A DNA stretch of 64,000 nucleotides from Halomicrobium sp. LC1Hm (GCF_009617995.1 NZ_CP044130.1:62001-126000); one strand, 5' to 3'. Positions 18,166 through 61,565 are shown, counted from the stretch's first letter. Made by a program: numbers and translations. Notes: generated from the letters alone by a model not told the origin.

Positions 18166-18278
18166 ACCAGGTAGTTAGCAACCGGTCAATTCAATCTTAC
18201 GAGTCGAGCGCGAACCGACGAATCAGCCCCGAAAACACCCGAAAAGGATTAATGAGGATCAGCCAGACAGAGAAGACA

Positions 18279-26212: not shown

Positions 26213-26214
26213 GG

Positions 26215-29052: not shown

Positions 29053-29226
29053 AGACGCCGAGCGACTCCCTTCGACGCGGCGGTGGTGTTGCGATCGTGC
29101 GACGGCACGGACGGCGTTGGTGAAAAGACCACGTTGGGTGCCACGTTCCGGTTCGACTACTAAATGCTTTGTTCCGGGGTGTGATCGACACCCATCCGGG
29201 AGGGACTGTGCGGTCCCGACGCGAAG

Positions 29227-31797: not shown

Positions 31798-31934
31798 CTG
31801 CAGGTCGTTGGACCGGGAGTGGCTTCAACGTACTGACCGAGCGGAACGTGACCGAGGAGTATCCGTATTCGCTCCGATTCGAGACGTGTTCTAGTGGGAA
31901 GATAATTTGAACTGGAAGTCCTACGCCGAGAGGA

Positions 31935-35909: not shown

Positions 35910-36071
35910 ATCATATGTGTCTCTGAATACGTCCGTATTTGACTTTGCCCACGGTATCTCCCATCTCTCTTTTCTCGCAGACATCAGCGACTCTATACGG
36001 TATATTCGCCATATTTAATCTCGCAGGCGGTTCCAAATCTTTATCTGCGAAGTGGGTTATATCACGGTATC

Positions 36072-37415
36072 ATGGGCGACGGCGACGACCAGCAGTCACT
36101 GTCCCAGTCTATCAAGGGACGACTTCAGGAGGGCGTGCAGGACTCCGTTTTCAGGGACAAGGGTCTCCTCGATCCGGATGCCGTTATCGACGAGGACCGC
36201 ATCGTCGGTCGCGACGACCAGCTCGAAGACATCATTACGTATCTCCGGCCGGCGCTGCAGGGCAACCGCCCGCCGAATATGCTGCTCTACGGCCCGTCCG
36301 GGACCGGCAAGTCCCTGATCATCAACGCCGTCTGCCAGCAGGTGCTCGAACTGGCAAACAGCCAGGACATCGACTTCGGCGTCGTCGAAATCAACTGCCA
36401 GACGCTCAAGTCACACGATCGAGCCGTCTACCAACTCGTGGAAAACGCCGCGGCGAAAGCGGGCGTCGAGGTCGGCGTCCCACAGAGCGGAGTCTCCACG
36501 AGCCAGAAGCTCAACCGCTTCTACGATATTCTGAGCGAACACTTCGAGTCGGTCATCATCATCCTCGATGAGGTCGACCTGCTCGTCGGTCGCCAGCGGG
36601 ATCCAAACGACGAACCGGCGTACTCGAAACTCCTGTATCAGCTGTCTCGGGCCTCCCAGCTGGGCCGGATCGACCAGCACGTCTCGGTCGCCGCCCTCAC
36701 GAACGATCCGCGCTTCATGGAGGAACTCGACGGCCGTGCCGAGAGCTCGTTCAACCCCCAGGACGTAGTGTTTTCCGACTACGACGCCAATCAGCTACAG
36801 GCGATCCTGGAACGTCGACGCGACGCGTTCCAGGAGGGAGTCCTCGAAGACGGGATCATCCCGCTCAGTGCTGCCTTCGCGGCACAGGATCACGGCGACG
36901 CGCGGAAGGCGATCGACCTGTTCCGGACGGCAGGCGAGATCGCGGATCGTGCCGGCGACGACACGGTCCACGAACAGCACGTTCGCGACGCACAGGAGGA
37001 GGCCGAACGCGACCGGACGCTGACCCAGATGCAGGGCCTCTCCTCGCAGAAGAAGCTCTCGCTGTACGCGACGGCGATCGTCCCGGTGTACTCGAACCGA
37101 AACATCAACGCCGTCCCGAGTACGGTCGCCTACCGCGTCTATCAGTACCTCACGGAGCTTCTGGACACGGACGAGAAGTCTCGGGACTCCTACCTCCGGT
37201 ACATGGGCGAGGCCGAGACCTACAACTTCGTCACCTCGGAGAAGCGAGGCCGTGGCTACGGCAGCGGCGTCCACAAAGAGTACACGTTCGTCGACGACCC
37301 AGAGGTCGTCGCCGAAACGCTACGCTCGGACATCCGACTCGAAGAGGTCGAGCAGGACGAGTCACTGATCAAGTCCGTCGTCAACGCTCAGATCGAGGAC
37401 TTCTTCGAGGGGTGA
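36072..37415 (+). CDS. orc1: Orc1/Cdc6 replication initiator
   Basis: A 447-residue initiator. Walker A GPSGTGKS near 76-83, Walker B IIILDEVDLL near 163, sensor-1 ALTND near 208, and a C-terminal winged helix (about 330-430) that binds origin boxes. The N-terminal FRDKGLLDPDAVIDEDRIVGRDDQ segment is typical of haloarchaeal Orc1/Cdc6 paralogues. It is flanked on both sides by boxes sharing TCGCACACGGGG, so it is very probably their cognate initiator. AT-rich TATTCGCCATATTTAATC upstream (about 36002-36020) supplies a promoter. Confidence 0.95.
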   Translation: MGDGDDQQSLSQSIKGRLQEGVQDSVFRDKGLLDPDAVIDEDRIVGRDDQLEDIITYLRPALQGNRPPNMLLYGPSGTGKSLIINAVCQQVLELANSQDIDFGVVEINCQTLKSHDRAVYQLVENAAAKAGVEVGVPQSGVSTSQKLNRFYDILSEHFESVIIILDEVDLLVGRQRDPNDEPAYSKLLYQLSRASQLGRIDQHVSVAALTNDPRFMEELDGRAESSFNPQDVVFSDYDANQLQAILERRRDAFQEGVLEDGIIPLSAAFAAQDHGDARKAIDLFRTAGEIADRAGDDTVHEQHVRDAQEEAERDRTLTQMQGLSSQKKLSLYATAIVPVYSNRNINAVPSTVAYRVYQYLTELLDTDEKSRDSYLRYMGEAETYNFVTSEKRGRGYGSGVHKEYTFVDDPEVVAETLRSDIRLEEVEQDESLIKSVVNAQIEDFFEG

Positions 37416-38836: not shown

Positions 38837-41200
38837 TTATTGCTGTGTGTCCCTACTGACAGCGCTGGTGCCACGAATTTCATTGATAGTGCTCTCGATT
38901 TCCTGCAACAGTCGCTCTCGGCTCTCTTCATCGTTTTTACAGAGCTCTCTGAATTGGTCATCCAACTTGCTCAATTGCCCATCCGAAAGCTCTCGTGGAT
39001 CGATCACTGGGACCGACTCTAACTGACCGATTTCGAGCTTTTCGAGGCCGTAGTAATTATCGCTGTGCTTGCTGAGCTCTTTCTCGACGAACGTGCTATT
39101 GAGATAAGCCAAGAGCCCATTCACGTGTGACTGGTCACAATCGAATTTCAAGCTCACCTGATGGATATTGTTCAGTGTTCGAAACTTACCATCGTTTCTA
39201 AAAAATCTGAATCCATCTCGATTCATATATCTGCCCAAAATCTGTGCGGGCTCTTGGCACTCCACTTTGAACCACGGCGATCTTTTAGAGCAAAGGTATC
39301 CGTCGGTAACTCCCTCTTTTTCGCCCTTCCTGAGATACTTGAGGACGACCTCTGATTCGATTTCTTCTCTACTTATCGAATCTCCACTCGCCGTTCGGCA
39401 GTACAGAAGCCAGACATCTTCTTCGTCCTTTCGCCATTGGTACCAGTCCTCATCTGTTACGGCGAATCCAGAGATTTGTTTAGGTGACCTGATAATTCTC
39501 TTTCTGTACTCCTTGGGAATCGGATATTCCTCAAGCGTCTCCTTCGAAAGACAAAAGAAATCGTTTTTACCGGTCGCTATTCCCCTGTTGATCGTCGCTA
39601 TCGAGCCAAACTCGACGAGTTCTGGGTGACTTTCGACTTCGGTTTCGCTGAAATACTGTGACCATCGTTCTGATGGTGAGAGTAATTCTTGAGCGAACTC
39701 GGTCGCGAATTCGACTTCCGAATACTTACTTAGTGAATCTGTTGAGAGGAAATCGTGTGCGTCGACGACATCGGGCCACTGGCTGACCCGTACGAATCGC
39801 GTATGCTTGTCTCGAGATGGTTCGCCTTGGGTCAAAAAGAATATGCACGGTTTCGCCCGAATTTCCGGGAAGACGTCTGTTTCTTCCTCTAATTGGATGA
39901 TGCCGTCAATCCCGAATTCGTTCAGGAGATATTTTTTCAGCGGTGTGCCAAACTTCGCATCCAAGATTCGGGAGGGGATGAGGAACGCCAATTTACCGCC
40001 CGATGTGACAAATTCCCCGGCGTGTGCGAGGAAGTAGCCGTACAGCGGTGTCGTCCCGCTAAGGTCGTACCCAGTCTCTCGGGAAACGATTTCGTTAATA
40101 TCGCATTTCGTTCGATTCTCGATGGATTGATGTCGCGAGTATGGCGGATTCGCGATCACGCCATCGAACCGTTCCCGTTCGTAGCTCTCGTTTTCGTACG
40201 TAAGAGGACTATACTGAATGAAGCCTTGACACCGAAGTTGCGGGCTCTCGTTCCCGTCTAGCAGCTTCAACGAAATAGACGCCATCGATATCGCTATCGG
40301 GTCTGTGTCGACCCCAACGATCTGACGTAGTGGAGAGTCAACCCCTGCACTACGCTTTGCGGCCAGAACTTGTGCGGTCAATTGACCTGCTCCGATACCC
40401 GGGTCCAGGATCTTCGAGCGAGGATCCGAATTTGCCCAGGATGCCATACATCGTGCGACGGAGGTGGGTGTTGCGAACTGTCCCATCTCGCGACGGGCCT
40501 CTTGGGATACGATGTTCTCGTACGAATTTGCCAGCACGCTCGCAGGATTCTCTGCCGAGTTCAACGGGGTCCGCAGTGCGAGAAGTACACTATCCATCTC
40601 CTCGGAGAGGTGGCTCGACAGATGGTCGATAGGAAGTGGTTGCAGCCCCTCGTCACCGGTTACTTCGTACGCATTGTCGAAGGTCGCATTCCAATCGTTG
40701 TCGAGGTCCAGCTCGACCAGGTCAGCATCGGTTGTGGAGTGAAGTGTATAGAGGGCTGCGCGGAGAAATCGCCGATACAAAGCTAGCCGGAGTGCGAATC
40801 GATGTGTGTCTGCCTCGTCTGGAACCCCTCGGTCCGATAGCCACTTCTCTACTGTGGGAATGTCGCGGGTCAGGCCGGACTGGCCGACCAAATCCTCAGT
40901 AAATCGGAACGCGATATCGGATAATATTCGAGAAATTGTCTCGTCATCACACGGGAGTTCGGGCTCTGAAAGCTCAGGGCTGACATCCCAATCGAATGTA
41001 CTACCGATCTCGTCACTAGTCATCACCCCGATTTCCTCTAATCTGTGCAGCTTGTCCAGCGCCGTCCGGCGTGTACATCCTAAGGAAGCTTCGACTGTTT
41101 TCGCCGTAGTTCGCTCCGAAGTACTGATGACCGCAAATACTTGCCCAAGAGAATACTGAGTTGTATAGATCCCAGAATCAGAGTCACGAGAATCCGACAT
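38837..41200 (-). CDS. N6-adenine DNA methyltransferase with N-terminal winged helix
   Basis: A 787-residue protein. Residues 15-65 look like a winged helix (ERTTAKTVEASLGCTRRTAL). The catalytic domain has motif I ILDPGIGAGQLTA near 265 and motif IV ANPPY near 353, followed by a TaqI/Eco57I-like arrangement (YGYFLAHAGEFVTSGGKLAFLIPSR). The C-terminal third resembles a target-recognition region (IINRGIATGKNDFF, KYLRKGEKEGV). No PD-(D/E)XK motif is visible, so it is not an obvious type IIG enzyme and no nuclease gene adjoins. It is an orphan or defence-associated methylase. Codon use is lower in GC than in the flanks, suggesting transfer. Confidence 0.85.
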   Translation of the reverse strand: MSDSRDSDSGIYTTQYSLGQVFAVISTSERTTAKTVEASLGCTRRTALDKLHRLEEIGVMTSDEIGSTFDWDVSPELSEPELPCDDETISRILSDIAFRFTEDLVGQSGLTRDIPTVEKWLSDRGVPDEADTHRFALRLALYRRFLRAALYTLHSTTDADLVELDLDNDWNATFDNAYEVTGDEGLQPLPIDHLSSHLSEEMDSVLLALRTPLNSAENPASVLANSYENIVSQEARREMGQFATPTSVARCMASWANSDPRSKILDPGIGAGQLTAQVLAAKRSAGVDSPLRQIVGVDTDPIAISMASISLKLLDGNESPQLRCQGFIQYSPLTYENESYERERFDGVIANPPYSRHQSIENRTKCDINEIVSRETGYDLSGTTPLYGYFLAHAGEFVTSGGKLAFLIPSRILDAKFGTPLKKYLLNEFGIDGIIQLEEETDVFPEIRAKPCIFFLTQGEPSRDKHTRFVRVSQWPDVVDAHDFLSTDSLSKYSEVEFATEFAQELLSPSERWSQYFSETEVESHPELVEFGSIATINRGIATGKNDFFCLSKETLEEYPIPKEYRKRIIRSPKQISGFAVTDEDWYQWRKDEEDVWLLYCRTASGDSISREEIESEVVLKYLRKGEKEGVTDGYLCSKRSPWFKVECQEPAQILGRYMNRDGFRFFRNDGKFRTLNNIHQVSLKFDCDQSHVNGLLAYLNSTFVEKELSKHSDNYYGLEKLEIGQLESVPVIDPRELSDGQLSKLDDQFRELCKNDEESRERLLQEIESTINEIRGTSAVSRDTQQ

Positions 41201-41392
41201 ATATCGTCCATTTCAAGCCCTTGTAATGGTACTTTCGGTACCTATCTAAAACTCTCATCCAGAGCATATGGCGATGTCTTCATGTTGGGATTTGGTTTAC
41301 CTGTGAATTGGTGCTGGATTTTTTGTAGACTACCATCAGAGAATGGGCAGCTGGGCGCCTATGCGAGACGATGATTTCCCTCTGAGAAGTAG

Positions 41393-42136
41393 CTAGACAT
41401 CGAGTATCTTCTGCCAGTGGGGGTTGTGATGCAGAGCATACCAGAAGCCTTGGAGATCGTCGCGTCTAGACTTCGCGTCCGGTACCATTGTCCGAACGAG
41501 TTTCCAAAATCTCTCGTTGTGAGTTGCTTCGAGAAGATGAGCAACCTCGTGGGCGACCAAATACCTGAGGTGAGCGAACGGTAAGAATGCACAACGGATA
41601 TTGAAATTCAGTGTGTCGCCCCCAGAGCAGCTCGCCCATTTCGTTCGCTGAGATCTGATCGCGAGCGTCTCGTAGCTTACTTGCAGTCGGTCGCAAAACG
41701 GGCTCGCGATAGTCTTGACTGCTTCCCGAAGAGCTTGACGTAGAGATTCATGGAGAAGACCCATTGCCGCCTGGGCACCCGGTGCACGTACGGACACGCG
41801 TTCCGAGTCGACGTCGATACGTTTTGAACCGCTCTGAATATCGAGCGTGTAGGACTTCCCCCAGAGAGTAAACGCCTCTTCGACATTCCCGTACCGATGC
41901 TGAATGTCCCTTCGCCGCTGTCGCTGATCCTCGAGTTCAGACCGAATCCAACCCGTCTCCTCGTTGATGAGTGGGGGTCCCGATTGACCTGGTGGAACGA
42001 TGATTCTGACCGTCCCATCGGGTGCGATTTCGAGCCGCGGATGCTGGATATCCCGTTCGCTGACCGTATAATCGATTTGGTCACCAGATGGCAGCGTTAG
42101 TGAACCCCCTCTCGTGCTCACGGTGAGGAATATCAC
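41393..42136 (-). CDS. YgjP/DUF45-like zinc metallopeptidase
   Basis: A 247-residue protein. The core SQRTKWASC, then LNFNIRCAFLPFAHLRYLVAH and HEVAHLLEATHNERFWKLV gives the HExxH...H zinc site of the YgjP/SprT-like metallopeptidases. Such genes are often neighbours of restriction-modification loci. It is transcribed in the same direction as the methyltransferase 192 bp downstream and is divergent from the GHKL gene across 40 bp. Confidence 0.85.
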   Translation of the reverse strand: MIFLTVSTRGGSLTLPSGDQIDYTVSERDIQHPRLEIAPDGTVRIIVPPGQSGPPLINEETGWIRSELEDQRQRRRDIQHRYGNVEEAFTLWGKSYTLDIQSGSKRIDVDSERVSVRAPGAQAAMGLLHESLRQALREAVKTIASPFCDRLQVSYETLAIRSQRTKWASCSGGDTLNFNIRCAFLPFAHLRYLVAHEVAHLLEATHNERFWKLVRTMVPDAKSRRDDLQGFWYALHHNPHWQKILDV

Positions 42137-42176
42137 TCCCCGACCCTTTTAACATTGCCAACTAACAAGTGTAGCA

Positions 42177-44543
42177 ATGGCCGAACCATCTGAACAGCGA
42201 CTTACATTTACTATCGACAGTCGCCTCCTCGAAGAGATCGGAGAGAACTTAGTCACGAGGAATCACGTGGCTGTTGGCGAACTGGTCAAGAATTCCTACG
42301 ATGCTGATGCGACCGAGGTCCTACTGCAATTCGACGATGTGGCTGCTTCAGATACTTCTGATAGTGAAATTGCGGTTATCGACGACGGATCGGGGATGAC
42401 GCTCGAAGAGGTTCGTGACGATTTTATGCGGATTGCGACCACCAACAAACTGCGAAACCCGACCTCAGAGAAATTTGGTCGTGAGAAAGTTGGGGACAAA
42501 GGAATCGGCCGATTTGCCTGCCGACGACTTGCGGACCAACTGGAGATAGAGACAACTGCGAAACTGGATGATGGCGGATACCAGCGCACGACCCTCGATA
42601 TTGACTGGCGTGATTACGAATCCGACCAAGAAATAGAAGACGTTACCTTCCCTGTGACGGTTCGTGAAATACCGGAAGCAGAAGCCGATTCTATTTCCAC
42701 GGGGACCAGACTCCGATTGTACAATCTCCAGGAGTCGTGGTCAGAGCGTGATTTCAATACGCTCCGCCGAAACATGGCTACGCTCTCAGTAGTGCAGGAG
42801 GCAGACCGAGGTAACCCGTTTGAACCTGATCCGGGGTTCGAGATTCGATTTGATGCGCCGGAGTTCGATCTGGGTGAGGGCACTCTTTCGGAGCAAATTC
42901 ACGATGCGTCGTGGGGCTGTCTCGAAGGGGAGATCCGGAGAGACGGAACCGTTTCTCTCGACCTCGATGCAAAGCTGATTGGAGAACAGTCGTATTCATT
43001 CTCTCACAGCAATCCGGGATTAGCGGGAACGACATTCAAAATCTCGTATCTCCCCTTAGATACGAAGGAACACTATCGAGACTCTCAAACGTTGAATATC
43101 ACGGATGCGCGTGACATTTCGGACGATAACAGTGGCGTGAGGGTGTACAAGGGGGGATTCCGAGTGTTCTCGTACGGTGGACCGGACGATGACTGGCTGA
43201 ACATCGACCAAGCGAAGACGACCCACGCTGGGAGGAGTCCCGACGATACGTTCGAAGATCTCCAAGGTGAATTAGATCTACATACGGATTACGATCGAGT
43301 GATGCTTTCTGGGCCAAGTAACCGAAACTTGGTCGGGGAAGTAATGATTGATTCTGATGCAGAATTGACAATGGCCTCGAATCGGGAAGATTTCCGAGAG
43401 GACGAGTTATTAGATGATCTCCGTGAACTCCTCCGGCTAAGTATTCAGTGGATGACCCTCCAATGGAGTCACTACAAGGCGGTTAAATCTCACCAGGAGT
43501 TGAAGGAGCAAACAGAGGAGTTCATCGAGGCGACCGGCGGCGGGAGCGGAACTGAGCCCGACAGTAGTAGTGACACCGAATCTATCGACGACGATACCAG
43601 CTCAGCAGGTTCTGTGTCCTCGAGTAGTGACACCGATGAACCGGTTGATGATGCAATTGATCTGATCGAAGGCGTCGCCGATACGGCGACACGTACTGTA
43701 CCCGAAGAGGATCGTGATGTGTCCGACGAGGCCGTCGACGCAGCGACACGGGTGATTAAGCAAACTATCGATCAGAAAGAACAAGAAATTGACTTCTTCC
43801 GATCCGCTTTCTCTGTAAATCAGGTTGTATTCTCCTTTTCCCACGAACTTCGCTCGATGGTTGGCGAGCTCAGCACGAACGCTGGTCAAATTGAAGCTGC
43901 GATGGACGATATCCCAGACGAACATCGGGAGGATTTCGAAGGTACTGTTGAGAACCTTCGGGAGATGGAAGATCGGTTCAAATCCCAGATGGAACTGTTC
44001 GGCCTCTTCATGGAAACTGGGGACAAGACCGAAGCCACGGATGTGAAGGTTAGCGATGTGGTTGACAAGGTCACGGAAGCAACTGAATATATCGCTCAAT
44101 ATTACAGTGTAGATGTTACTACCGACGTCCCCGACCTCTTGCGTTCGCCGCCAATGTTCGAATCGGAACTGTATTCTATCGTGATAAATCTAGTCACAAA
44201 TAGCATCAAGGCAGTTGGATCGGTGAGTTCAGGCGAGAGTCGAATCCTCGTTGAAGGAACGAAAATAGAGGATGGAATGAGATTACGTGTATACGACACT
44301 GGTGTCGGCTTGCCAGAAGATGAGGCCGAGCAGGCATTCCAACCGCTCGTTTCCGACCCTGCAAACAATTTATACGACGATCTATCGGAGGAAATGCCCG
44401 AAGGGCTATCCGACCAATTAGGCCGAGGTACCGGTCTTGGCCTGAGTATTGTCCGGAATATCGCAGAAAAGTACGATGGCCATGCGAAATTCGTCGAGAC
44501 TGAGGATTGGACGACGTGTGTCGAGGTGGTTCTGAATGAATGA
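42177..44543 (+). CDS. Dual-GHKL ATPase: Hsp90/MORC-like plus histidine-kinase module
   Basis: A 788-residue cytoplasmic protein with two Bergerat-fold ATPase units. The N-terminal one has ELVKNSYDADAT (N box, near 36-47), VIDDGSGM (near 71) and GDKGIGRFACRRLAD (G2-like), as in Hsp90/MORC/MutL proteins. A Ser/Asp-rich linker (about 445-500) precedes a histidine-kinase half with an H-box (FSFSHELRSMVGE, near 555), N box NLVTNSIKAVG and DTGVGLPEDEAEQAF then GRGTGLGLSIV. It has no membrane helix. It overlaps the receiver-domain gene by 8 bp. Probably the sensor or energy module of a conflict or stress system. GC is lower than flanks. Confidence 0.85.
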   Translation: MAEPSEQRLTFTIDSRLLEEIGENLVTRNHVAVGELVKNSYDADATEVLLQFDDVAASDTSDSEIAVIDDGSGMTLEEVRDDFMRIATTNKLRNPTSEKFGREKVGDKGIGRFACRRLADQLEIETTAKLDDGGYQRTTLDIDWRDYESDQEIEDVTFPVTVREIPEAEADSISTGTRLRLYNLQESWSERDFNTLRRNMATLSVVQEADRGNPFEPDPGFEIRFDAPEFDLGEGTLSEQIHDASWGCLEGEIRRDGTVSLDLDAKLIGEQSYSFSHSNPGLAGTTFKISYLPLDTKEHYRDSQTLNITDARDISDDNSGVRVYKGGFRVFSYGGPDDDWLNIDQAKTTHAGRSPDDTFEDLQGELDLHTDYDRVMLSGPSNRNLVGEVMIDSDAELTMASNREDFREDELLDDLRELLRLSIQWMTLQWSHYKAVKSHQELKEQTEEFIEATGGGSGTEPDSSSDTESIDDDTSSAGSVSSSSDTDEPVDDAIDLIEGVADTATRTVPEEDRDVSDEAVDAATRVIKQTIDQKEQEIDFFRSAFSVNQVVFSFSHELRSMVGELSTNAGQIEAAMDDIPDEHREDFEGTVENLREMEDRFKSQMELFGLFMETGDKTEATDVKVSDVVDKVTEATEYIAQYYSVDVTTDVPDLLRSPPMFESELYSIVINLVTNSIKAVGSVSSGESRILVEGTKIEDGMRLRVYDTGVGLPEDEAEQAFQPLVSDPANNLYDDLSEEMPEGLSDQLGRGTGLGLSIVRNIAEKYDGHAKFVETEDWTTCVEVVLNE

Positions 44544-45558
44544 CTACGATGTTTGGTGGATCGACGACAGTGAAGATCGACGTGTGGCTTCCGACGCGTT
44601 AGAAGATAATTCTGATGACCTTACAGTTACATTTGACAAACCTGGCGTTGCCCTCGATATATTAACAGATAAATCTAAGCCAGTCGAGTATGATCTCGTA
44701 CTAATCGACTGGAAACTTCAGGACCATAGTGAATTTCGTGGGAAGGGGCTCACGATGATGGGGCGGGTCCGTGAGGAAATGCCGGCCGTCCCCATCTACG
44801 GATTCAGTGATGCGGTAGATGAATTACGGGCAACTGCAGGGGATCACCAATTCGATGCTACGTACGATGCGTCGCAACTCAAATCTGAGGACGGGGCAAC
44901 GAACGTAGAGAAAGACCTGGAATCCTACGAGTCAATCAGACACGTTGAGGGCGCTGGGCTCGAACCTCTGCTCGAAACATTGGGGGCGCCAAAGGATGCT
45001 TACGAAGACCTGAAGAGTGTGATACCACGTGAATACGCGAATGGCATCCAAGCTGAAGGTGAAGGAAGCGTCCGTGAATTTGCGTATTGGGTTCGAAACC
45101 GGTTCGTAGAGACACCCGGACCAGTTTTGGACAATACGTGGTGGGCTACGAAAATCGGGCTCGAAAAGGAAGCGCTGGAAAACCACGTCGATGAACTGAC
45201 TGACGTCGTCGATAAACCAGTACTCTACGATGGGGTATTTGACCACCGGTGCGACAGACGTTGGTGGACTTCCCAGGCGATCAGTTCGGTCGTTGCTCTT
45301 GCTAAAGACCACGGTGAACACATAAATGAGCTAACGATGGTTGGTAAGGATATATTGGGAGAATCAGAGGGCCTATCCTACTGCCGGGTCTGTGAACTTC
45401 GTGAATCGTCGGAACAGATCGGCGGCAGACCCGATATTCTCGCGGCAGGCAGGGAAGGAGAAGACGCAGACCACCCCGTTCATCTCGGATGTAGCCATAT
45501 CCATCATACACGGGAGGGTGCGTTTGAAGATTATCGTGTAGCCGATATGCTCGAATAA
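44536..45558 (+). CDS. Receiver-domain protein with large unknown C-terminus
   Basis: A 340-residue protein. Residues 1-125 follow a REC fold: acidic pair DD (11-12), phospho-acceptor Asp in LVLIDWKL (near 58), and GFSD in place of the usual Thr/Ser-bearing segment. Residues 150-340 match no family I recognise. They contain an RHVEGAGLEPLLETLG region, a conserved-looking WVRNRF...WW segment and a C-terminal Cys/His set (CRVC...HLGCSHIHH) that could bind zinc. It is probably the phosphotransfer partner of the overlapping dual-GHKL protein, with the C-terminus as output. Confidence 0.7.
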   Translation: MNDYDVWWIDDSEDRRVASDALEDNSDDLTVTFDKPGVALDILTDKSKPVEYDLVLIDWKLQDHSEFRGKGLTMMGRVREEMPAVPIYGFSDAVDELRATAGDHQFDATYDASQLKSEDGATNVEKDLESYESIRHVEGAGLEPLLETLGAPKDAYEDLKSVIPREYANGIQAEGEGSVREFAYWVRNRFVETPGPVLDNTWWATKIGLEKEALENHVDELTDVVDKPVLYDGVFDHRCDRRWWTSQAISSVVALAKDHGEHINELTMVGKDILGESEGLSYCRVCELRESSEQIGGRPDILAAGREGEDADHPVHLGCSHIHHTREGAFEDYRVADMLE

Positions 45559-46367
45559 TGCCTCCGGTGCCATCTGCTGACGGCCTTTTGCCCGACCCAG
45601 AAGAGCTGCATGCTCATTTGTTAACACAGTTTGAATTCCTAAAGGGCCGGAATAGTACACTTAGCCGGCATAGCGACGAATTCGATCAAATATACTCTGA
45701 TTTAGAAACATCTGATCCGAGCAATTGGAGTTTAGATATCACCCCCAATTGGGCTATCCCGTTAGAACTCCCCGATTTTATCGTTGAAACAAGACCTAGC
45801 CGGGATTTTGCGATTGAAAATGGATGGGCTATCGTTGGGGGAAATATTGATGTTTCCGATGGCAAATATACGGACTACGCGTTCCATCTAAGTTTTCTCG
45901 CGAGTAAAGAAGAGGAGGTCAGAGGTGAACCCTCCAACGGCCCTTGCTGCTGGAGGGCGGAAGAACAAGACTGGGATTACAGAGTTGCGAAGCAGTATCA
46001 TTTCGACATCGACCCAGGACGGAATCGGAACGAACCGAAACCTGTCGCCCACTTCCAATCGCAAGGCAGTTTCGAACAGGCTCGACTGCCTCCCGGACTT
46101 CGACACCAAGATATTCATTACTGCTCGACACCGTTAGACAAGCCCCGACTGGCCCATCCGCCGATGGACCCCATCCTCCTACTGCAGATAGTTTCGGAAC
46201 AATACGGGGGCCCCGCGTCGATGTTCTCTGAACACTGGGATCCGATGGTTGTAAGGGCCGAGTCAACGCTCTGGTCGGGGTACTATAGTGGTGTTTCAGA
46301 GCATCTCGGAGACGACGATCGGTCGGCTCCATGTAATATCCTCATTTCGAATGACCGGATCGATTAA
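45558..46367 (+). CDS. Unknown protein, third gene of the GHKL operon
   Basis: A 269-residue protein. Start overlaps the receiver gene by 1 bp (TAATG), so it belongs to the same unit. I recognise no family. Visible features: HFDIDPGRNRNEPKPVAHFQ in the middle (the pattern HFD...HFQ could be a substrate site), a Pro-rich RLAHPPMDPILLLQIVSEQY, two cysteines in GPCCW, and no signal or membrane segment. It may be the effector of the three-gene system. Base composition is AT-richer than the flanks. Confidence 0.65.
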   Translation: MPPVPSADGLLPDPEELHAHLLTQFEFLKGRNSTLSRHSDEFDQIYSDLETSDPSNWSLDITPNWAIPLELPDFIVETRPSRDFAIENGWAIVGGNIDVSDGKYTDYAFHLSFLASKEEEVRGEPSNGPCCWRAEEQDWDYRVAKQYHFDIDPGRNRNEPKPVAHFQSQGSFEQARLPPGLRHQDIHYCSTPLDKPRLAHPPMDPILLLQIVSEQYGGPASMFSEHWDPMVVRAESTLWSGYYSGVSEHLGDDDRSAPCNILISNDRID

Positions 46368-53029: not shown

Positions 53030-56000
53030 GTTTCAGACGGACCCTTGTGGGATTGAAGCGGCAGGTGGTCGCCGGCACCGACGACAACGAGCAGGGTTTC
53101 AGACGGACCCTTGTGGGATTGAAGCCTGGGGCATGTCGTCGAGCTCGTCGATCGCGAGGACGTTTCAGACGGACCCTTGTGGGATTGAAGCGGTATTTGA
53201 CGTGGGCTGATGTAAAGGCCATCCTGTTTCAGACGGACCCTTGTGGGATTGAAGCGCCGCTCGGTGGTCACAGTCTGCCATAGGTGCTTGTTTCAGACGG
53301 ACCCTTGTGGGATTGAAGCGCGGCGGCCGCCGGGCGGAGTTAAACGACCAGAGCGTTTCAGACGGACCCTTGTGGGATTGAAGCTTGAGACTCCGAAGGC
53401 AAAACTCGACGTTACCTTTGGTTTCAGACGGACCCTTGTGGGATTGAAGCCAGGACTGGACCCACGACCCGGCAGGCACCATTTCGCGTTTCAGACGGAC
53501 CCTTGTGGGATTGAAGCTCGGTGTCGGGGTAGAACGTCACAAGCACGAAGTCCGTTTCAGACGGACCCTTGTGGGATTGAAGCCCGCCGTCGGAGTCGAG
53601 TAGGCGAGCCCGGCCCGGAGTTTCAGACGGACCCTTGTGGGATTGAAGCGGTGACCTGTCCACCGTCGGTCATCAGCGTGGTCTGGTTTCAGACGGACCC
53701 TTGTGGGATTGAAGCCGCGACGGCGTCGACGAGGACGAGTTGCGCGACTAGTTTCAGACGGACCCTTGTGGGATTGAAGCGGCCAGCGGCTGCGCGCCCG
53801 CGACAACGAACCGGTTTCAGACGGACCCTTGTGGGATTGAAGCTATCTCGGATGGATCGGGTTCGAGACGACAGCCGTGTTTCAGACGGACCCTTGTGGG
53901 ATTGAAGCCGTCCGCGCAAGGCGGCCGCGTGGTCCATGATTTCGTTTCAGACGGACCCTTGTGGGATTGAAGCAGTGTCGAATCTATCCACCGGGTCGCA
54001 AACGGCCAGTTTCAGACGGACCCTTGTGGGATTGAAGCGACCGCATCCACGAGGCCGAGAGTGTGCTGTACGTGGTTTCAGACGGACCCTTGTGGGATTG
54101 AAGCAACGGTTCCCCAGACCATGTACTTTCGGCCACTGAGTTTCAGACGGACCCTTGTGGGATTGAAGCCCGACACGGAGCGGGTTGGTGCCGTTACAGT
54201 ATACCGTTTCAGACGGACCCTTGTGGGATTGAAGCGCCTCCTGCTGGGCGCGAGTCTTCGCGTGTCCGCGGTTTCAGACGGACCCTTGTGGGATTGAAGC
54301 TCACGCCGTCCGTATCCCGTAGCATGACCCACGCGTTTCAGACGGACCCTTGTGGGATTGAAGCAAACACGGCCTGTACTCCGACGTGATCCGCGAGGAG
54401 GGTTTCAGACGGACCCTTGTGGGATTGAAGCGAGGTCGAGCGAGACGATGTCGATCAGGACCTGATCGGTTTCAGACGGACCCTTGTGGGATTGAAGCGT
54501 ACTCGCCGTCTTCGGTCAGGGCAATGTGCCGGTTTCAGACGGACCCTTGTGGGATTGAAGCCGGGCGTGGATTGCACTTGCACAAGAACACGAACCGAGT
54601 TTCAGACGGACCCTTGTGGGATTGAAGCTATCAGATCAACCCGAACTTTATGACCGAGATCGAGAGTTTCAGACGGACCCTTGTGGGATTGAAGCCGTCG
54701 GTGTCCGAGACGGAGATCGCCGCGGAGCTCGTTTCAGACGGACCCTTGTGGGATTGAAGCCAGCGGTGGGATACAGCAGCAGACCATCTTCGGTCCGGTT
54801 TCAGACGGACCCTTGTGGGATTGAAGCGTGATCCAGTGGGCTCGGAACCCGTCGATATACTCGTTTCAGACGGACCCTTGTGGGATTGAAGCGTGGTGCT
54901 GGGGTTCGGTGCGGTATTCGGCCTCGTGTTTCAGACGGACCCTTGTGGGATTGAAGCATTAGCGCCTCGGCCGCGACTTCGGCGGCGATGGTGTTTCAGA
55001 CGGACCCTTGTGGGATTGAAGCACTACGCGATGGACGTGTGGCAAGGGACGGACCCACGTTTCAGACGGACCCTTGTGGGATTGAAGCAGCCATCTACAT
55101 TAGGACAACATGACCTGCACCACCTTGTTTCAGACGGACCCTTGTGGGATTGAAGCAGCCGAGTCGCGGGTGTAGGACTGTAACCCGCTCATGGTTTCAG
55201 ACGGACCCTTGTGGGATTGAAGCGGTCCGTAGACACGGGTACTGACCAGGAGGACCAGTTTCAGACGGACCCTTGTGGGATTGAAGCCCTAACAATGCTC
55301 AGATCAACATCACCGGCGACAACGTTTCAGACGGACCCTTGTGGGATTGAAGCTGATTAGTCGGTAGTACGTCCGTTTGCGGTCCGGAGTTTCAGACGGA
55401 CCCTTGTGGGATTGAAGCCTGGGGCATCGTCATCAAGTCCACAGACCGATAGCGGTTTCAGACGGACCCTTGTGGGATTGAAGCGCCACCATCCAGTCGA
55501 CCGACGGCAACACGCTCGTGTTTCAGACGGACCCTTGTGGGATTGAAGCGATCCCGACGACGGCCGTCGGCACCTGAAAGACCGAGTTTCAGACGGACCC
55601 TTGTGGGATTGAAGCGTGATCCAGTGGGCTCGGAACCCGTCGATATACTGTTTCAGACGGACCCTTGTGGGATTGAAGCCGACACGGAGCGGGTTGGTGC
55701 CGTTACAGTATACCAGTTTCAGACGGACCCTTGTGGGATTGAAGCGCCCACCTGCTCGTCGAGATCGGCGGCGGCCGTCTCGTTTCAGACGGACCCTTGT
55801 GGGATTGAAGCGAGAACTTGCGCGATAGTGGCTAAGGCGTCGACATGTTTCAGACGGACCCTTGTGGGATTGAAGCCGAGCGAGGTAGATTGCCTTCGCG
55901 AGCTTCGTTGCGGGTTTCAGACGGACCCTTGTGGGATTGAAGCATCTGGTCGGTGCGCTCGTTTTCGTCCGTACACAGGTTTCAGACGGACCCTTGTGGG

Positions 56001-56993
56001 ATTGAAGCTCGTAGCGAGTACCCTCTGCCCCGGGGTCGTAGTTGAGTTTCAGACGGACCCTTGTGGGATTGAAGCTCGTAGCGAGTACCCTCTGCCCCGG
56101 GGTCGTAGTTGAGTTTCAGACGGACCCTTGTGGGATTGAAGCGACTCATAGTACCCGCTCCATGCAGTCGGCGCACAGGTTTCAGACGGACCCTTGTGGG
56201 ATTGAAGCTACCGCGACGCCGACTCGCACACGTCGACGCGACTGTTTCAGACGGACCCTTGTGGGATTGAAGCCAGCAGCGGGACGTGATCGGCCTCGGC
56301 CCTCCAGGTTTCAGACGGACCCTTGTGGGATTGAAGCGCTTACTTAAACGCCCGGAATCGTCTCGTCTGGCCCGTTTCAGACGGACCCTTGTGGGATTGA
56401 AGCAAGGCCTGTTACCCTTAGGGAAGATTGCGAGCCCGTTTCAGACGGACCCTTGTGGGATTGAAGCCGGTGGTGGTCCATGTGACAGCGCCGGTCCCGC
56501 GGCGGTTTCAGACGGACCCTTGTGGGATTGAAGCGTGGGCTACGTCACCGACACCGTGACATCTAACGGCGTTTCAGACGGACCCTTGTGGGATTGAAGC
56601 TATGAGATCATCACCTGGAAGGCAAAGCTCGGTCGTTTCAGACGGACCCTTGTGGGATTGAAGCAGCCAGTAATAGTCCTCAACGGAGAGATACTCCAGG
56701 TTTCAGACGGACCCTTGTGGGATTGAAGCCGAGAAGTACAGGAACGGATAGAGAAAGAGCGCGGGTTTCAGACGGACCCTTGTGGGATTGAAGCGCGAAC
56801 GTGAAGGGCGACGACGCGCCGGAGCGGACTGGTTTCAGACGGACCCTTGTGGGATTGAAGCAGTAGTCCATCCTGGATGCTGGCTGCTTGTTTGATAGGC
56901 TTCAGACGGATCCTTGTCGGAATGATGTCTCCGTCCGTTCGAGCGGCTGAGGCCATCGAACGGGCTTCAGGCCCACTCTCGTGGGATCGAAGC
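53030..56993 (+). CRISPR. CRISPR array, 59 intact plus 2 degenerate repeats
   Basis: Fifty-nine 30-bp repeats (start GTTTCAGACGG, end GGGATTGAAGC), first at 53030-53059, last intact at 56832-56861, separated by spacers of about 34-38 bp (58 by hand count). Two further repeats are degenerate: 56899-56928 and 56964-56993. The repeat class and the ATTGAAGC 3' handle match haloarchaeal type I-B systems, with crRNA read on the plus strand. Three pairs of related spacers are present. No cas genes occur in the window, so Cas proteins must be supplied from elsewhere. Confidence 0.97.
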
Positions 56994-59900
56994 TATCCGG
57001 TATCGTCTGGTGGCTTCCACAGGGCTTCCAGATCGTCCCGCAGATACCGGATCGATTCGTACCGATCCCGCTTTGCCGTCGCCAGCGCCGTGCGTACGAT
57101 CTCGTCGAGTTCGGGCGGCACGTCGTCACGGTAGGCACTCGGGGCTGGCGGTGGCCCGTCGTCGCGGACGATCCGCTTGCGGACGGCGAGGCGTCCGCCG
57201 CTCACGGGCGGCTCGCCGCGTAGCATCGCGTACAGCACAGCGCCGACCTGGTAGATGTCCGTGACCGGGTCCGGTTCGCCGAAGGCCTCGGCGTCGAACT
57301 GTTCGGGCGCGGCGAAGTGCCGGGAGAACCCCTCCATCGAGTCGGTTCGGTCCCGCAGCTTTCTCGCGAGGCCCCAGTCGGCGAGCTTCGGCAGGTCCCA
57401 GCGTGACGGTGCCGTTTCGGTGAAGAGGACGTTCCCCGGCTTGACGTCCAGGTGGGCGATCCCGTACTCGTGTGCGACTTCGAGCGCGCGGCAGAGACAC
57501 TGCGCGATCCACACGGCCTCTTCGACCGCCAGCCCGTCGGTGCCGTCGAGTCGATCGGCGAGATCGCCGCCGTCCATGTACTCCATGGCGATCCACGGGC
57601 GGGTGTCCCCGATGTCGACGACGCCGACGATGTACTCGTGGGAGCGCCACCGGCGGCTCTCTCGCTCGCGGTCGTCGACGGTCCGCCACGTCTGTGCCCG
57701 CTGGAGAAACGAACTGATCGCGTCGTACGTCAGGGTCCGCTCGCCGCGAGCCGGTTCTTTCAGCGCGATCCGGGCCGGCGACTCGATCGCGGGATGGGTC
57801 GTCTCGTACACGACCGCCTGGCCGCCGGTCCCAAGCGTCGCTCCGATCTCGAAGTCCTCGTAGCTCACCGACCGTCTCGGTGGGCTCGGGAACTGTTCGA
57901 CAGCCGGGGCGCGCGCGTCTCTGATCGCCTGATCGAGTGTAGCGCTCGACCGGTCGGGATCGGTCTGCTCCGTGGCCGCTGTGACACGCTCCGCTGGAGA
58001 ACCCGCGCTGACGACCACCTTCGCCTCCCGGCGCACCGCACCGTCGCGCTCGTATCCGATCTGCTGGACGGAGACGATTCGCCCCTCCGGAACGGAACTC
58101 TCGGTCGAGGAGACCACCCGATGGCGGTACGGGTCCGTTTCGGCCCCGCCGTCGGGATCGACGAGCACGAGTCCCGCCGCTTCGAGCCCGCGGTCGATCC
58201 GGTCGACCAGCCCTTCGAGGTCGTCGAACGCCGGCCCCGTCGACGCGTCCTCGTCGAGCAGTGCTCGCAGCGACTCCTCGACGGCCGCGAGTTCGTCGAC
58301 GAGCCGGTCGGCTCGCTGGCTCTCGCCGTCCTCGTCATGGCTGTCTGCTCTCTCCGCGTTCGTCCCGAGGATCGACTCGACGTTTCGGGCCGTCTTTTCG
58401 AGGTTGTCGCGGAGGTCCGCCACGTCGTTGTCGATCGATCGGCGACAGTAGAGGACGCCTCGGTGGAGCTGGTTGCGCACGTCGAGGGTCTCGTCGATCA
58501 GCGTCTCCAGCTCCCACGGGGCGCTCGTCTCCGAGTTGCCGTCGGCTGCCGTCGCCTCGTCCTCGTCCCGAGCGGCAACCAGTCGGGGCGCGGGCCGTTC
58601 CTGCTCGGACTGCCGTCTCGTTCCATCCTCCGGCGGTAGCTCCGTCGTCGGATCGATCGTGATCGATTCACTGCCGCCGTCGTGGTCTGCCTCGACGTTG
58701 ATCCACCGGTTCTCGTCGATACCCACCGTGACCTCGATCGCCGGTGTCCCAGCCGAGGCCGGTGGCACGTCGCTCAGGACGAACTCGGCGAGCAACTCGT
58801 TCCGTGTGGCGGTTTCGTGTTCGCCCTGGAACACGCGTATCGGCACCGCCGTCTGGTCGTCCACCGTCGTGGTGAACACCACTGACTCGACGGTCGGGAT
58901 GGTCTCGCCTCGCTCGACGATGCGCTCGAAATCACCGCCCTCGACCGCGATGCCCAGCGGCAGGGAGGTCACGTCCAGCAGCACCACGTCGTCGACCTCC
59001 CCCGAGAGGATGCCCGCCTGCACGGCCGTCCCGAGTGCGGTGACCTCGTCTTCGTTGACGCGTCTGGTCGTCTGCTGTCCGACCAGCGTCTCGATTCTGC
59101 TTCGAACCTGCGGGAGCCGGCTCGCGCCGCCGACGAGGAGGAGCTCGTCGATGTCGTCCGTCTCGTATCGACTATCGTTCAGGACTGCCCTGGTCGACTC
59201 GACGACGCGCTCGACGAGGGGCTCGGTCAGTGACTCGTAGGCGTCACGATCGAGTGTCGCGTTCAGATCCAGCGGACCGTCGTCCGTCGCCGTGACGTAG
59301 GGGACGTCGATCCGCGTCCGCTCGCGCGAGGCGAGTTCGATCTTCGCGGCCGCCGCTGCGTCGGCCAGCCGTCTGCGGGCCTGTGGGTCCTCGCGCAGAT
59401 CGATGCCGTGGTCCGCCTCGAACCGGTCGGCGAGGTGGTCGACGATCGCCGCGTCCCACTCTTCGCCTCCCAGCTCGTCGTCTCCGCCGTTGGCCACGAT
59501 CTCGTAGATGCCGTTCTCCACGTCCAGCAGCGAGACGCTCAGCGAGCCACCGCCGAGATCGCAGACCAGCACGGTCTGTTCTCCGTCGCTCCCGTAAGCG
59601 TATCCCATCACCGCGGCCGCCGCGTCGTCGATCGTCCGTTCGATCTCCAGCCCGGCGATCTCGCCGGCTCGCTCGATGCGTCTCCGCTGGCGAATCGACG
59701 CCACCGCGGGGACGGTGACGACCGCCTTCTCGACGGGCCGCCCGAGGGCGCTCTCGGCGTCAGAGCGAAACTTCTCGAAGAGCGATCCCGCCAGCTCCAC
59801 GGTCGAGTACTCTCGATCGCCCAACTCGACCGTGCTGCCCTCGCCGAGGAGGACGCGCTTGACCGACGTGACGGTCCGCTCCGGTCGGGAGACAGCTCGC

Positions 59901-60475
59901 TTCCGGGCCGCTTTGCCCACCAGCAGATTCCCGTCGTCGTCGACGGACAGCGCGGTGGGTGTCGCACGGTCCCCCTCGCTGTTGACGACGATTTCGGGCT
60001 CGCCGTCCACCGGCACTGCACAGACGCTGTCGGTCGTCCCCAGATCGACGCCGAGTATCACGTCGTTGGTCGGACCTGCGCCGGTCCTTCCTGCCGTCTC
60101 GACCGCGATGTCGTCGAACTCACGCTGTCCCTCTATCTGGAGTGTCGCGTCGCCGGTCGCGTCCTGGACCGAGACCCGCAGGGTCCCATCGCTGTCGACG
60201 GTGAACATGACTGCTATTTCCGGCACGCCCGCGGGAGCGGGTGCGAGGCCGGAGACCGTACACTCGCCGAGCAACTCGTTTTCCTCGACACGTTCATGCT
60301 CGCCCTGGAACACACGAATCTGGACCGTCTGCTGGTTGTCTTCGGCCGTCGTGAAGGTCTCCCTCGCCGACGCCGGCAGCGACTGCCCTCGGGAGAGCAA
60401 CTGCTCGCAGTGACCGCCATCGACTTCGATGCCGACGCCTGCGGCCAGCGTCGCTCCTGGCTGTGTCCCTCCCAT
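56993..60475 (-). CDS. Hsp70-GrpE-Ser/Thr kinase fusion
   Basis: An 1160-residue fusion in one frame. Residues 15-118: an isolated Hsp70 substrate-binding beta domain (QTVQIRVFQGEHERVEENEL). 138-490: complete DnaK-type ATPase (GVDLGTTDS 142-150, DLGGGSLSVSLL 306-317, LLLVGGASRLPQVR 446-459). 500-615: second beta domain (DVTSLPLGIA, RGETIPT). The lid is absent. 655-825: GrpE-like region, with a coiled-coil then the beta-wing DPYRHRVVSS, GRIVSVQQIGYE, REAKVVVS. 871-1155: kinase ([22 protein letters not shown] 1008-1018, DWG 1033-1035, AAPEQF). Probably a cytosolic chaperone-coupled kinase whose activity depends on client load. Confidence 0.9.
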   Translation of the reverse strand: MGGTQPGATLAAGVGIEVDGGHCEQLLSRGQSLPASARETFTTAEDNQQTVQIRVFQGEHERVEENELLGECTVSGLAPAPAGVPEIAVMFTVDSDGTLRVSVQDATGDATLQIEGQREFDDIAVETAGRTGAGPTNDVILGVDLGTTDSVCAVPVDGEPEIVVNSEGDRATPTALSVDDDGNLLVGKAARKRAVSRPERTVTSVKRVLLGEGSTVELGDREYSTVELAGSLFEKFRSDAESALGRPVEKAVVTVPAVASIRQRRRIERAGEIAGLEIERTIDDAAAAVMGYAYGSDGEQTVLVCDLGGGSLSVSLLDVENGIYEIVANGGDDELGGEEWDAAIVDHLADRFEADHGIDLREDPQARRRLADAAAAAKIELASRERTRIDVPYVTATDDGPLDLNATLDRDAYESLTEPLVERVVESTRAVLNDSRYETDDIDELLLVGGASRLPQVRSRIETLVGQQTTRRVNEDEVTALGTAVQAGILSGEVDDVVLLDVTSLPLGIAVEGGDFERIVERGETIPTVESVVFTTTVDDQTAVPIRVFQGEHETATRNELLAEFVLSDVPPASAGTPAIEVTVGIDENRWINVEADHDGGSESITIDPTTELPPEDGTRRQSEQERPAPRLVAARDEDEATAADGNSETSAPWELETLIDETLDVRNQLHRGVLYCRRSIDNDVADLRDNLEKTARNVESILGTNAERADSHDEDGESQRADRLVDELAAVEESLRALLDEDASTGPAFDDLEGLVDRIDRGLEAAGLVLVDPDGGAETDPYRHRVVSSTESSVPEGRIVSVQQIGYERDGAVRREAKVVVSAGSPAERVTAATEQTDPDRSSATLDQAIRDARAPAVEQFPSPPRRSVSYEDFEIGATLGTGGQAVVYETTHPAIESPARIALKEPARGERTLTYDAISSFLQRAQTWRTVDDRERESRRWRSHEYIVGVVDIGDTRPWIAMEYMDGGDLADRLDGTDGLAVEEAVWIAQCLCRALEVAHEYGIAHLDVKPGNVLFTETAPSRWDLPKLADWGLARKLRDRTDSMEGFSRHFAAPEQFDAEAFGEPDPVTDIYQVGAVLYAMLRGEPPVSGGRLAVRKRIVRDDGPPPAPSAYRDDVPPELDEIVRTALATAKRDRYESIRYLRDDLEALWKPPDDTG

Positions 60476-60542: not shown

Positions 60543-61565
60543 TCAGGGCGCGCCGTCGAGGATGTCGGTCAGCTTTTCGGGCTCGATGTTCCGACCCGAG
60601 ATCGGGAACACGACCGTCGATCCCGCGAGTTCGTCCGCGCGCTGTCTCATCGCCGCCAGGCTCGTCGCACAGGCACCCTCGATGGGCACCCCCTCGTTTA
60701 CGAACAGATCGCGAACGCCTCGCCGGAGGGCCGCCTCGCTCACGAGCCGGAACTCGTCGAGTCGCTCGCGGAGGACCGTCGTCGTCAGCGCGAAGGGAAC
60801 CCGCGTCGCGACACCCTCGGCGAACGTCTCCATCCGATCGTGGGGTTCGAGCGTGTCCTCGGCCCAGGCGCGGCGCATCGCCGGTGCCGCCTCCGACTGG
60901 GCTCCGATCACGGTGGCGTCCGTGAGCGCGCCCACCGTCAGACAGTAGCCGGCGGCGCTGGATCCGCCACCGACGGGACAAAACAGATAGTCGAGATCCG
61001 GCAGCGTCTCGACGATTTCGAGGCCGGCGGTGCCGACTCCGGCGACGAGGCTCGGCTCGTTCGCGGAGTGGACGTATCGATAGCCCGCCTGCGCGGCCAG
61101 GGACTCGGCGTGCTCGCGGGCTTCGTCGAAGTCAGCACCGTGGAACTGTACGTCGGCACCGAGCCGTTCCATCGCGGTCACCTTCGCGGCGTTGGCCGCT
61201 TCGGGCACCACGATCGTCACCGGCACGTCGAACGCGCGGCCGGCGTAGGCGACCGACTGCCCGTGATTGCCGGTGCTCGCGGCGATCAGGCCCGACTCGC
61301 GGAACTCGTCGTCGAGGCGCGACGCGAGGGTGACGCCACCGCGGACCTTGAACGCCCCCGTCGGCAGGGTGTCCTCGCGCTTCAGGTACACGTCGGCGTC
61401 GAACTCGGCCGAGAGGGACTCGCTCCGGACGAGCGGCGTTCGCGGGAGGTGGTCGTCGACGACGGGACGGGTCTCGTACACGTCGGCGGTCGCTGGTGGG
61501 GTGAGATCGTGATACGGGAACACGGTCGTCGCATCGGGGGAGGGAACAGGGCTGTACTCGCTCAC
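60543..61565 (-). CDS. Threonine dehydratase-like PLP enzyme
   Basis: A 340-residue fold-type II PLP enzyme. Lys in PTGAFKVRGG (near 73) is the PLP lysine, STGNHGQSVAYAG near 97-109 the substrate loop, and CPVGGGSSAAG near 196 the phosphate-binding glycines. It lacks a C-terminal ACT-type regulatory domain, as in catabolic dehydratases. It should deaminate threonine or serine to 2-oxo acids. The Hsp70-GrpE-kinase gene starts 67 bp downstream in the same direction. Confidence 0.85.
   Translation of the reverse strand: MSEYSPVPSPDATTVFPYHDLTPPATADVYETRPVVDDHLPRTPLVRSESLSAEFDADVYLKREDTLPTGAFKVRGGVTLASRLDDEFRESGLIAASTGNHGQSVAYAGRAFDVPVTIVVPEAANAAKVTAMERLGADVQFHGADFDEAREHAESLAAQAGYRYVHSANEPSLVAGVGTAGLEIVETLPDLDYLFCPVGGGSSAAGYCLTVGALTDATVIGAQSEAAPAMRRAWAEDTLEPHDRMETFAEGVATRVPFALTTTVLRERLDEFRLVSEAALRRGVRDLFVNEGVPIEGACATSLAAMRQRADELAGSTVVFPISGRNIEPEKLTDILDGAP

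Follow-up and report, generated by a model that had tools for sequence, protein, structure and literature searches.

Fusion of Hsp70, GrpE and Ser/Thr kinase domains in a haloarchaeal protein, a plausible unfolded-protein sensor

The fusion gene and its recurrence

The DNA analysed here, a stretch of 64,000 nucleotides referred to as the window, covers positions 62001-126000 of a 224-kb replicon (C2) of Halomicrobium sp. LC1Hm, whose 3.33-Mb genome comprises two contigs. An orc1/cdc6 replication initiator gene at window positions 35943-37409 is consistent with an independent replicon. On the minus strand, an uninterrupted frame (P0001) runs from an ATG at 60475 to a stop at 56993 with no internal stop, in agreement with the single frame of 1160 codons read in the initial annotation. 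Hsp70, GrpE and Ser/Thr kinase parts had been assigned to this one polypeptide, and the Pfam profiles recovered all three: HSP70 (E=6.3e-166, split over three stretches), GrpE (aa 681-823, E=5.9e-10, 39.5 bits against a cutoff of 25.8), which had been predicted at about 655-825, and Pkinase (aa 876-1138, E=2.3e-25). The NCBIfam DnaK models scored at most 590 bits, under their cutoffs (648 for PRK00290), as expected of a diverged member. The domains are listed in Table 1. The lone beta substrate-binding domain at the N-terminus, SBDb1, is an extra domain not mentioned in the initial annotation; by eye, its pocket still has residues of the A429 and V436 type. A CRISPR array of 59 repeats of 30 nt (window 53030-56861; Rfam CRISPR-DR24) adjoins the 3' end of the gene, with a degenerate repeat at 56899, and no cas genes were noticed within the 64-kb window.

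Table 1. Positions of the fusion gene, its domains and its upstream neighbour in the window
Feature	Position	Strand	Basis
Fusion gene, 1160 aa: SBDb1 - NBD - SBDb2 - GrpE module - Ser/Thr kinase	56993..60475	-	Pfam; orthologues of 1158-1159 aa
SBDb1 (aa 14-116), lone Hsp70 beta substrate-binding domain ahead of NBD	60128..60436	-	BLAST to DnaK SBDb, 43-54% identity; alignment
Hsp70 NBD (aa 139-492)	59000..60061	-	Pfam; alignments
SBDb2 preceded by interdomain linker VLLDVT (aa 493-612); no alpha-helical lid	58640..58999	-	Alignments; competing HMMs
Low-conservation linker (aa 613-655)	58511..58639	-	Lowest identity of all segments, 36-70%; AF2 pLDDT ~25-28
GrpE module (aa 656-823)	58007..58510	-	Pfam GrpE; alignment; AF2 model; Foldseek
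First helical hairpin (aa 654-710), kin to GrpE a2-a3 hairpin	58346..58516	-	hhalign; HMM against shuffles
Second helical hairpin (aa 717-766), at canonical GrpE a2-a3 position	58178..58327	-	hhalign; alignment
GrpE beta-wing (aa 770-823)	58007..58168	-	Invariant alignment columns; six strands in AF2 model
Hanks-type Ser/Thr kinase domain (aa 871-1154)	57014..57865	-	Pfam; motif reading
Threonine/serine dehydratase gene, 67 bp upstream of fusion gene	60543..61565	-	Neighbour shared with H. mukohataei and H. katesii

Halomicrobium mukohataei DSM 12286 encodes the whole protein on its plasmid pHmuk01 (WP_012807418.1, 1158 aa, 89.6% identical), H. katesii encodes a version that is 80% identical, and the 2.4 kb upstream of the gene are 87-100% identical among the three. 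The public annotation of WP_012807418.1 is only 'nucleotide exchange factor GrpE', a label that hides its architecture. Because the whole protein recurs in these two species, the fusion is not a product of assembly. A frameshift, against which the initial annotation had warned, or an assembly artefact is ruled out, since the same unbroken build was found in independent assemblies, one of them a named plasmid record.

A survey for the same domain order, proposed in the initial annotation, was carried out with the GrpE-module region, which was searched against groups of Halobacteria taken whole or as samples. The order NBD-SBD-GrpE-kinase was found in eight haloarchaeal genomes belonging to four genera and two families. 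The fused modules scored at least 117 bits and the stand-alone GrpEs at most 83 bits. The carriers are three genomes of the Halomicrobium group (G000, G059, G060), one of the same family (G120) and four of another family (G422, G332, G370 and G465), the last three being the g57 genomes. The domains are arranged as SBD-NBD-SBD-GrpE-kinase in Halomicrobium, as NBD-SBD-GrpE-kinase in G120 and as NBD-SBD-SBD-GrpE-kinase in G422 and the g57 genomes, so that two SBDb domains are present in seven of the eight fusions (in G332 and G465 the second SBD was read by eye). The Pfam GrpE score of G422 was just under the cutoff (24.9 against 25.8), and the module still aligns along its whole length. The 146 genomes of the window's own family were searched with a single query sequence, and the wider profile was applied to the class sample and three families only; distant members may therefore have been missed. 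The fusion was not found in two further families (0/125 and 0/28 genomes, with no positive control there), and no relatives of the protein were found in the viral contigs searched. Four other matches proved not to be fusions of this kind: in L050 and on a Natrinema plasmid, grpE and dnaK are separate genes, and the G111 (L064) and G381 (L077) loci encode propeller and HhH kinases.

The rarity of the fusion and its degenerate NBD (see below) might suggest an accidental or decaying gene fusion, or an assembly artefact. Against this stand the recurrence of the same full-length frame in independent assemblies, the same order in four genera, and purifying selection, for dN/dS is below 0.65 in all folded domains and lowest in the kinase (0.09-0.19). 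Given the recurrence, we regard such an origin as refuted for practical purposes, its probability being negligible.

The Hsp70 and GrpE parts

Residues of the fused NBDs are given in E. coli numbering, assigned by motif. The alignment used for comparison contains stand-alone haloarchaeal DnaKs; its row L045 is a mis-read fragment, and L056 and L057 are themselves unusual Hsp70-GrpE fusions. Residues of the K70, E171, T199 and D201 type are established as needed for ATP hydrolysis in Hsc70/DnaK. At least one of K70, E171 and D201 is gone in all eight fused NBDs, and none is lost in the stand-alone DnaKs read there. The losses are E171D with D201S in Halomicrobium, D201S in G120 and G422, and K70V with E171 changed to A or S in G332, G370 and G465; wherever D201 is S, T199 is S or C. 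The nucleotide-contact residues D8, T11 (S in G422), D194, G196-G198 and G341 are retained. The window NBD combines retained phosphate and adenosine motifs with E171D, T199S, D201S, Y145V, N147S and D148I. The fused Hsp70 should thus bind ATP and probably hydrolyses it poorly or not at all. As the losses differ by lineage, they suggest that hydrolysis was relaxed repeatedly while binding was kept.

The J-protein contacts Y145, N147 and D148 are gone in six of the eight fusions (Halomicrobium and g57), and in the window protein N170 and T173 are altered as well. Every fusion retains D393 of the linker, and all but one retain G32 in the loop that contacts GrpE. The protein's own chromosomal DnaK (C1:2029434-2031008) is about 51% identical to the fusion over the NBD and SBDb and has the nucleotide motifs and the VLLDVT linker in common with it; by comparison with this DnaK, the fusion has lost the hydrolysis and J-contact residues and the lid, and has gained an SBDb, the GrpE module and the kinase. 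Since a canonical grpE-dnaK pair is still present on the chromosome, ordinary chaperone work is covered.

The absence of a lid, already claimed in the initial annotation, was confirmed by competing HMMs. The haloarchaeal DnaK-lid HMM failed on the helices after SBDb2 (5.6 bits, a score reached by 28 of 500 shuffles), and the GrpE-hairpin HMM matched the same helices with 16.1 bits (0/500 shuffles). The first hairpin was thereby rejected as a remnant of the DnaK lid, although the Pfam HSP70 alignment does run into its helix.

In the GrpE module, the beta-wing signature is conserved in the fused and stand-alone proteins alike. The long N-terminal coiled coil of GrpE is missing, and an extra a2-a3-like helical hairpin stands instead; helix 651-679 belongs to this first hairpin and is preceded by the low-confidence linker. 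Aligned with canonical GrpE hairpins by hhalign, the first and second hairpins gave E-values of 6.2e-9 and 1.2e-6, respectively. Under the GrpE-hairpin HMM the second Halomicrobium hairpin was weak alone (3 bits, against the score of the first given above), and the case for a duplication in Halomicrobium is therefore made by the alignment and by the relatives. In the g57 proteins the two hairpins scored 32-39 and 13-14 bits (0/500 shuffles). A match of one hairpin to the other was significant only in G332 and G370 (z 6.2 and 6.8; 0/2000 shuffles), the self-similarity within the window protein alone being not significant (191/2000 shuffles).

The AF2 model of the module (29 sequences; pLDDT 86.9, pTM 0.81) consists of four helices followed by six strands. 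When it was compared with the PDB by Foldseek, the top eleven matches were GrpE chains (best E=5.5e-5), followed chiefly by helical-bundle proteins with weak E-values. Owing to differences in the helical part and in its orientation, the TM-scores to GrpE are low (0.35-0.50). A chance coiled coil as the source of the GrpE similarity was ruled out by the Pfam, profile and fold searches. The module thus has the beta-wing signature and hairpin homology in common with GrpE (PF01025; PDB 1dkg, 4ani, 3a6m and 8gb3, the top fold matches); it differs in lacking the long coiled coil and in its doubled hairpin. Unlike in the canonical dimer, the four bundle helices and one beta-wing are all predicted to come from a single chain.

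In the DnaK-GrpE complex of Mycobacterium tuberculosis (Mtb), the NBD touches one protomer's beta-wing together with short helices from the two protomers, and the long GrpE helices touch NBD and SBD (PMC10803776). The fusion keeps the material for the beta-wing and short-helix contact and has lost the long-helix contact with NBD and SBD. The Mtb salt bridge between DnaK E236 and GrpE R169 is not retained in the window protein, which has D and Q instead. The module bears on the 1:2 asymmetry seen in cryo-EM of DnaK-GrpE (PMC10803776), for one chain appears to give the short helices of both protomers with a single beta-wing.

One chain holds all parts of the Hsp70 cycle except a J-protein, and the retention of D393 and G32 would suit a self-contained, active Hsp70 machine with a built-in exchange factor, regulated in cis by phosphorylation from its own kinase. 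We consider this very improbable, because K70, E171 or D201 is gone throughout, the J contacts are gone in most fusions, and neither a lid nor a GrpE coiled coil is present. With at least one hydrolysis residue lost in all eight, the J contacts in six and the SBD-contacting long GrpE helix gone, a normal cycle of hydrolysis and exchange is unlikely, and a sensor of the binding type is plausible.

The kinase domain, its siblings and the genomic setting

The claim that the kinase is complete held up: all Hanks motifs are present in the window protein, namely GTGGQAVV (Gly loop), IALKE (VAIK lysine), HLDVKPGN (HxD...N), DWG (DFG-type Asp) and APE, and they are intact in all eight fusions. The fused kinase domains do not form one clade. 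Those of Halomicrobium fall in one strongly supported group and those of G120, G422 and G370 in another, and a single clade was rejected (p-AU 1.4e-5), whereas monophyly of the NBDs was not (p 0.235, with long branches). Either the kinase was exchanged beneath a conserved Hsp70-GrpE half, or the fusion arose more than once.

Within the gene of H. katesii (L049), residues ~120-655 form a sharp-edged, divergent cassette of ~1.55 kb over the NBD, SBDb2 and the linker. Identity to H. mukohataei is 73-83% in the cassette, falling to 62% in the linker, against 94-99% for the flanks within the gene. With the window as reference, NBD and SBDb2 have a dS of 0.54-0.58, as against ~0.15 for SBDb1 and kinase. 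The Hsp70 core of H. katesii has thus been replaced as a cassette whose edges lie close to the domain borders.

Of the 16 kinase loci found by the search of the own genome, 14 were on the 224-kb replicon. The siblings carry PQQ propellers, HEAT repeats, a 2Fe-2S ferredoxin or EF1A domains 2-3 (two copies), and related kinases elsewhere carry EF1A domains 2-3, FtsZ, HhH arrays or blue-copper domains. The propeller, HEAT, ferredoxin, EF1A and FtsZ kinases share with the fusion the kinase family and the sensor-plus-kinase build, and differ in the sensor module. Kinases joined to EF1A/EF-Tu domains 2-3 without the GTPase domain were observed in the own genome (L082:8198-11137 (-), equal to C2:48198-51137) and in G422 (L076:9404-11221 (+)). 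In G332 a kinase is joined to a whole FtsZ (L079:8106-10085 (-); Tubulin 1.6e-32, FtsZ_C 3.4e-19), which by eye retains GGGTGTG and has an altered T7-loop N, and in G120 to two plastocyanin/azurin-type copper domains (L100:13006-15141 (+)). The kinase at window 18114-20291 (+) combines a winged-helix-like region with a C-terminal 2Fe-2S ferredoxin and is probably redox-sensing.

Within the window, MoxR-type AAA ATPase, vWA and HEAT-repeat genes stand in a row at 21749-29226, beside two kinases at 29233-34799; compared with the MoxR-vWA ternary conflict systems, these genes lie ~28 kb from the fusion gene and share no operon with it. An Eco57I-type DNA methylase gene is followed by a gene for a double HATPase_c protein and two further genes (38843-46361), possibly a defence cluster. 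The fusion gene of the g57 genomes stands alone on the chromosome among oxoacid:ferredoxin oxidoreductase- and geranylgeranyl-reductase-type genes (names by eye). By PADLOC, no known defence family matched beyond the generic kinase domain; the match to the defence kinases PD-T4-6 and MAD6 was confined to that domain, and MAD6 by NCBIfam scored 79.5 bits against a cutoff of 460.

DnaK and GrpE serve lambda replication, and a main and serious rival explanation, though on balance an unlikely one, is that the protein is an integrated decoy or guard: a non-working Hsp70-GrpE copy of a hijacked host hub, on which a viral factor would take the bait and the kinase would then shut the cell down. This would fit an NBD whose catalysis is lost by sequence while the fold is kept, the same-family kinases fused to other hubs (EF1A domains 2-3 on the own replicon and in G422, FtsZ in G332), and a replicon that holds most of the kinase loci together with a CRISPR array, a DNA methylase gene and a HATPase gene. 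The swapped Hsp70-core cassette of H. katesii is also what a fast-changing recognition part would predict. On the other side are the solitary, housekeeping-like chromosomal context in the three g57 genomes, the low dN/dS of every folded domain and the confinement of the defence-family matches to the generic kinase domain. In addition, the ferredoxin sibling retains its cysteines (by eye), and therefore looks like a working sensor.

A putative sensor kinase and its relation to known proteins

The initial annotation had interpreted the protein as a direct unfolded-protein sensor in which the binding or release of a client would set the kinase output. An unfolded-protein sensor is plausible, although the version of this mechanism that depends on an exchange cycle is weakened. 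The loss of hydrolysis residues in all eight genomes suggests that the Hsp70 part does not fold proteins but acts as a sensor, probably of misfolded proteins or of chaperone state. The explanation that we tentatively prefer, at just under an even chance, is that an ATP-binding, hydrolysis-impaired Hsp70/GrpE sensor drives the kinase, its ligand being most simply a non-native polypeptide. The N-terminal two thirds of the protein would then be a repurposed chaperone pair attached to a Hanks-type Ser/Thr kinase. The SBDb domains would bind exposed hydrophobic stretches of non-native protein, and the NBD and linker would change conformation without a cycle driven by a J-protein. The GrpE module, which grips the NBD in classical complexes, might read the open or closed state of the NBD and relay it to the adjoining kinase, which would then phosphorylate its targets.

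This sensor reading is favoured because the kinase motifs are intact throughout while the NBD has lost hydrolysis residues and retained nucleotide residues, because the propeller, HEAT and ferredoxin siblings are built as sensor plus kinase, because seven of the eight fusions have two SBDb domains, and because the Hsp70-GrpE part keeps its order though the kinase domains are not one clade. The housekeeping-like setting of the g57 gene favours a general stress sensor. Several points count against it. The full-length AF2 model was poor (pLDDT 53) and leaves an in-cis contact between the GrpE module and the NBD hypothetical; the Mtb salt-bridge pair is not retained; a built-in exchange factor on a poorly hydrolysing ATPase is a paradox; and the rarity of the fusion, together with its island location in some genomes, suits a conflict role equally.

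An intact kinase and two conserved SBDb domains would also be compatible with a kinase merely guided by chaperone domains, in which the SBDs recruit misfolded proteins or DnaK/DnaJ clients and a constitutive kinase marks them with no sensing; lid-less SBDs should bind and release fast, which counts in its favour. We find this improbable, since it leaves unexplained why an NBD and a GrpE module are kept in order, with the nucleotide motifs conserved, in all eight proteins. A broader proposal, possible if doubtful, is that a set of haloarchaeal kinases serves as surveillance baits, each with a covalently attached copy of a core machine (Hsp70-GrpE, FtsZ, EF1A domains 2-3, ferredoxin, blue-copper); overload or virus attack would change the bait, and the kinase would fire. 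The Hsp70 bait would be enzymatically inactive, as its sequence indicates, and the Hsp70-GrpE kinase would be the best developed member, with GrpE as a single-chain pseudo-dimer.

Sensor kinases are a known kind; a sensor made of Hsp70 and GrpE is not known. The statement of the initial annotation that no described protein has this order still stands, as no description of the architecture was found in the open full-text literature searched (subscription papers and preprints being outside this scope). Two-part fusions are already in the sequence data. A protein encoded on plasmid pYINM00001 of Streptomyces anulatus (WP_228183974.1; L053:3827-6172 (+)) likewise has a Hanks kinase and an Hsp70 NBD-SBDb in one chain, but its kinase comes first, it has no GrpE, and K70, E171, T199 and D201 are intact. 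Haloarchaeal Hsp70-GrpE fusions without a kinase (L056:3278-5182 (-) in G043; L057:3207-5171 (-) in G045) resemble the window protein in the order NBD-SBDb-GrpE and in a degenerate nucleotide site (T11A, GGG to GAA, D393S in these two), and differ from it in having a single GrpE hairpin and no N-terminal SBDb.

Hsp110 and Grp170 have an Hsp70 fold in which nucleotide binding outweighs hydrolysis; they also serve as exchange factors and have a large lid. By comparison, the haloarchaeal fusion is lid-less and joined to a GrpE-type module and a kinase. In PERK and IRE1 with BiP, the state of an Hsp70 is linked to kinase output with the Hsp70 in trans, whereas in the haloarchaeal protein it is a covalent part of the kinase. 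In prokaryotic conflict systems, HSP70/GrpE genes or kinases occur beside GTPases, outside a housekeeping context (Kaur et al. 2020, PMC7159879); those genes are separate and lie in mainly bacterial GAP1-N2 GTPase neighbourhoods, and the fusion is one haloarchaeal polypeptide.

The protein would be, to our knowledge, the first described kinase with a built-in chaperone and exchange factor. We know of almost no pathways in archaea that lead from folding state to phosphorylation. If the proposed reading is true, the fusion would offer a one-protein, genetically testable route from folding state, or from chaperone hijack, to phosphorylation in archaea.
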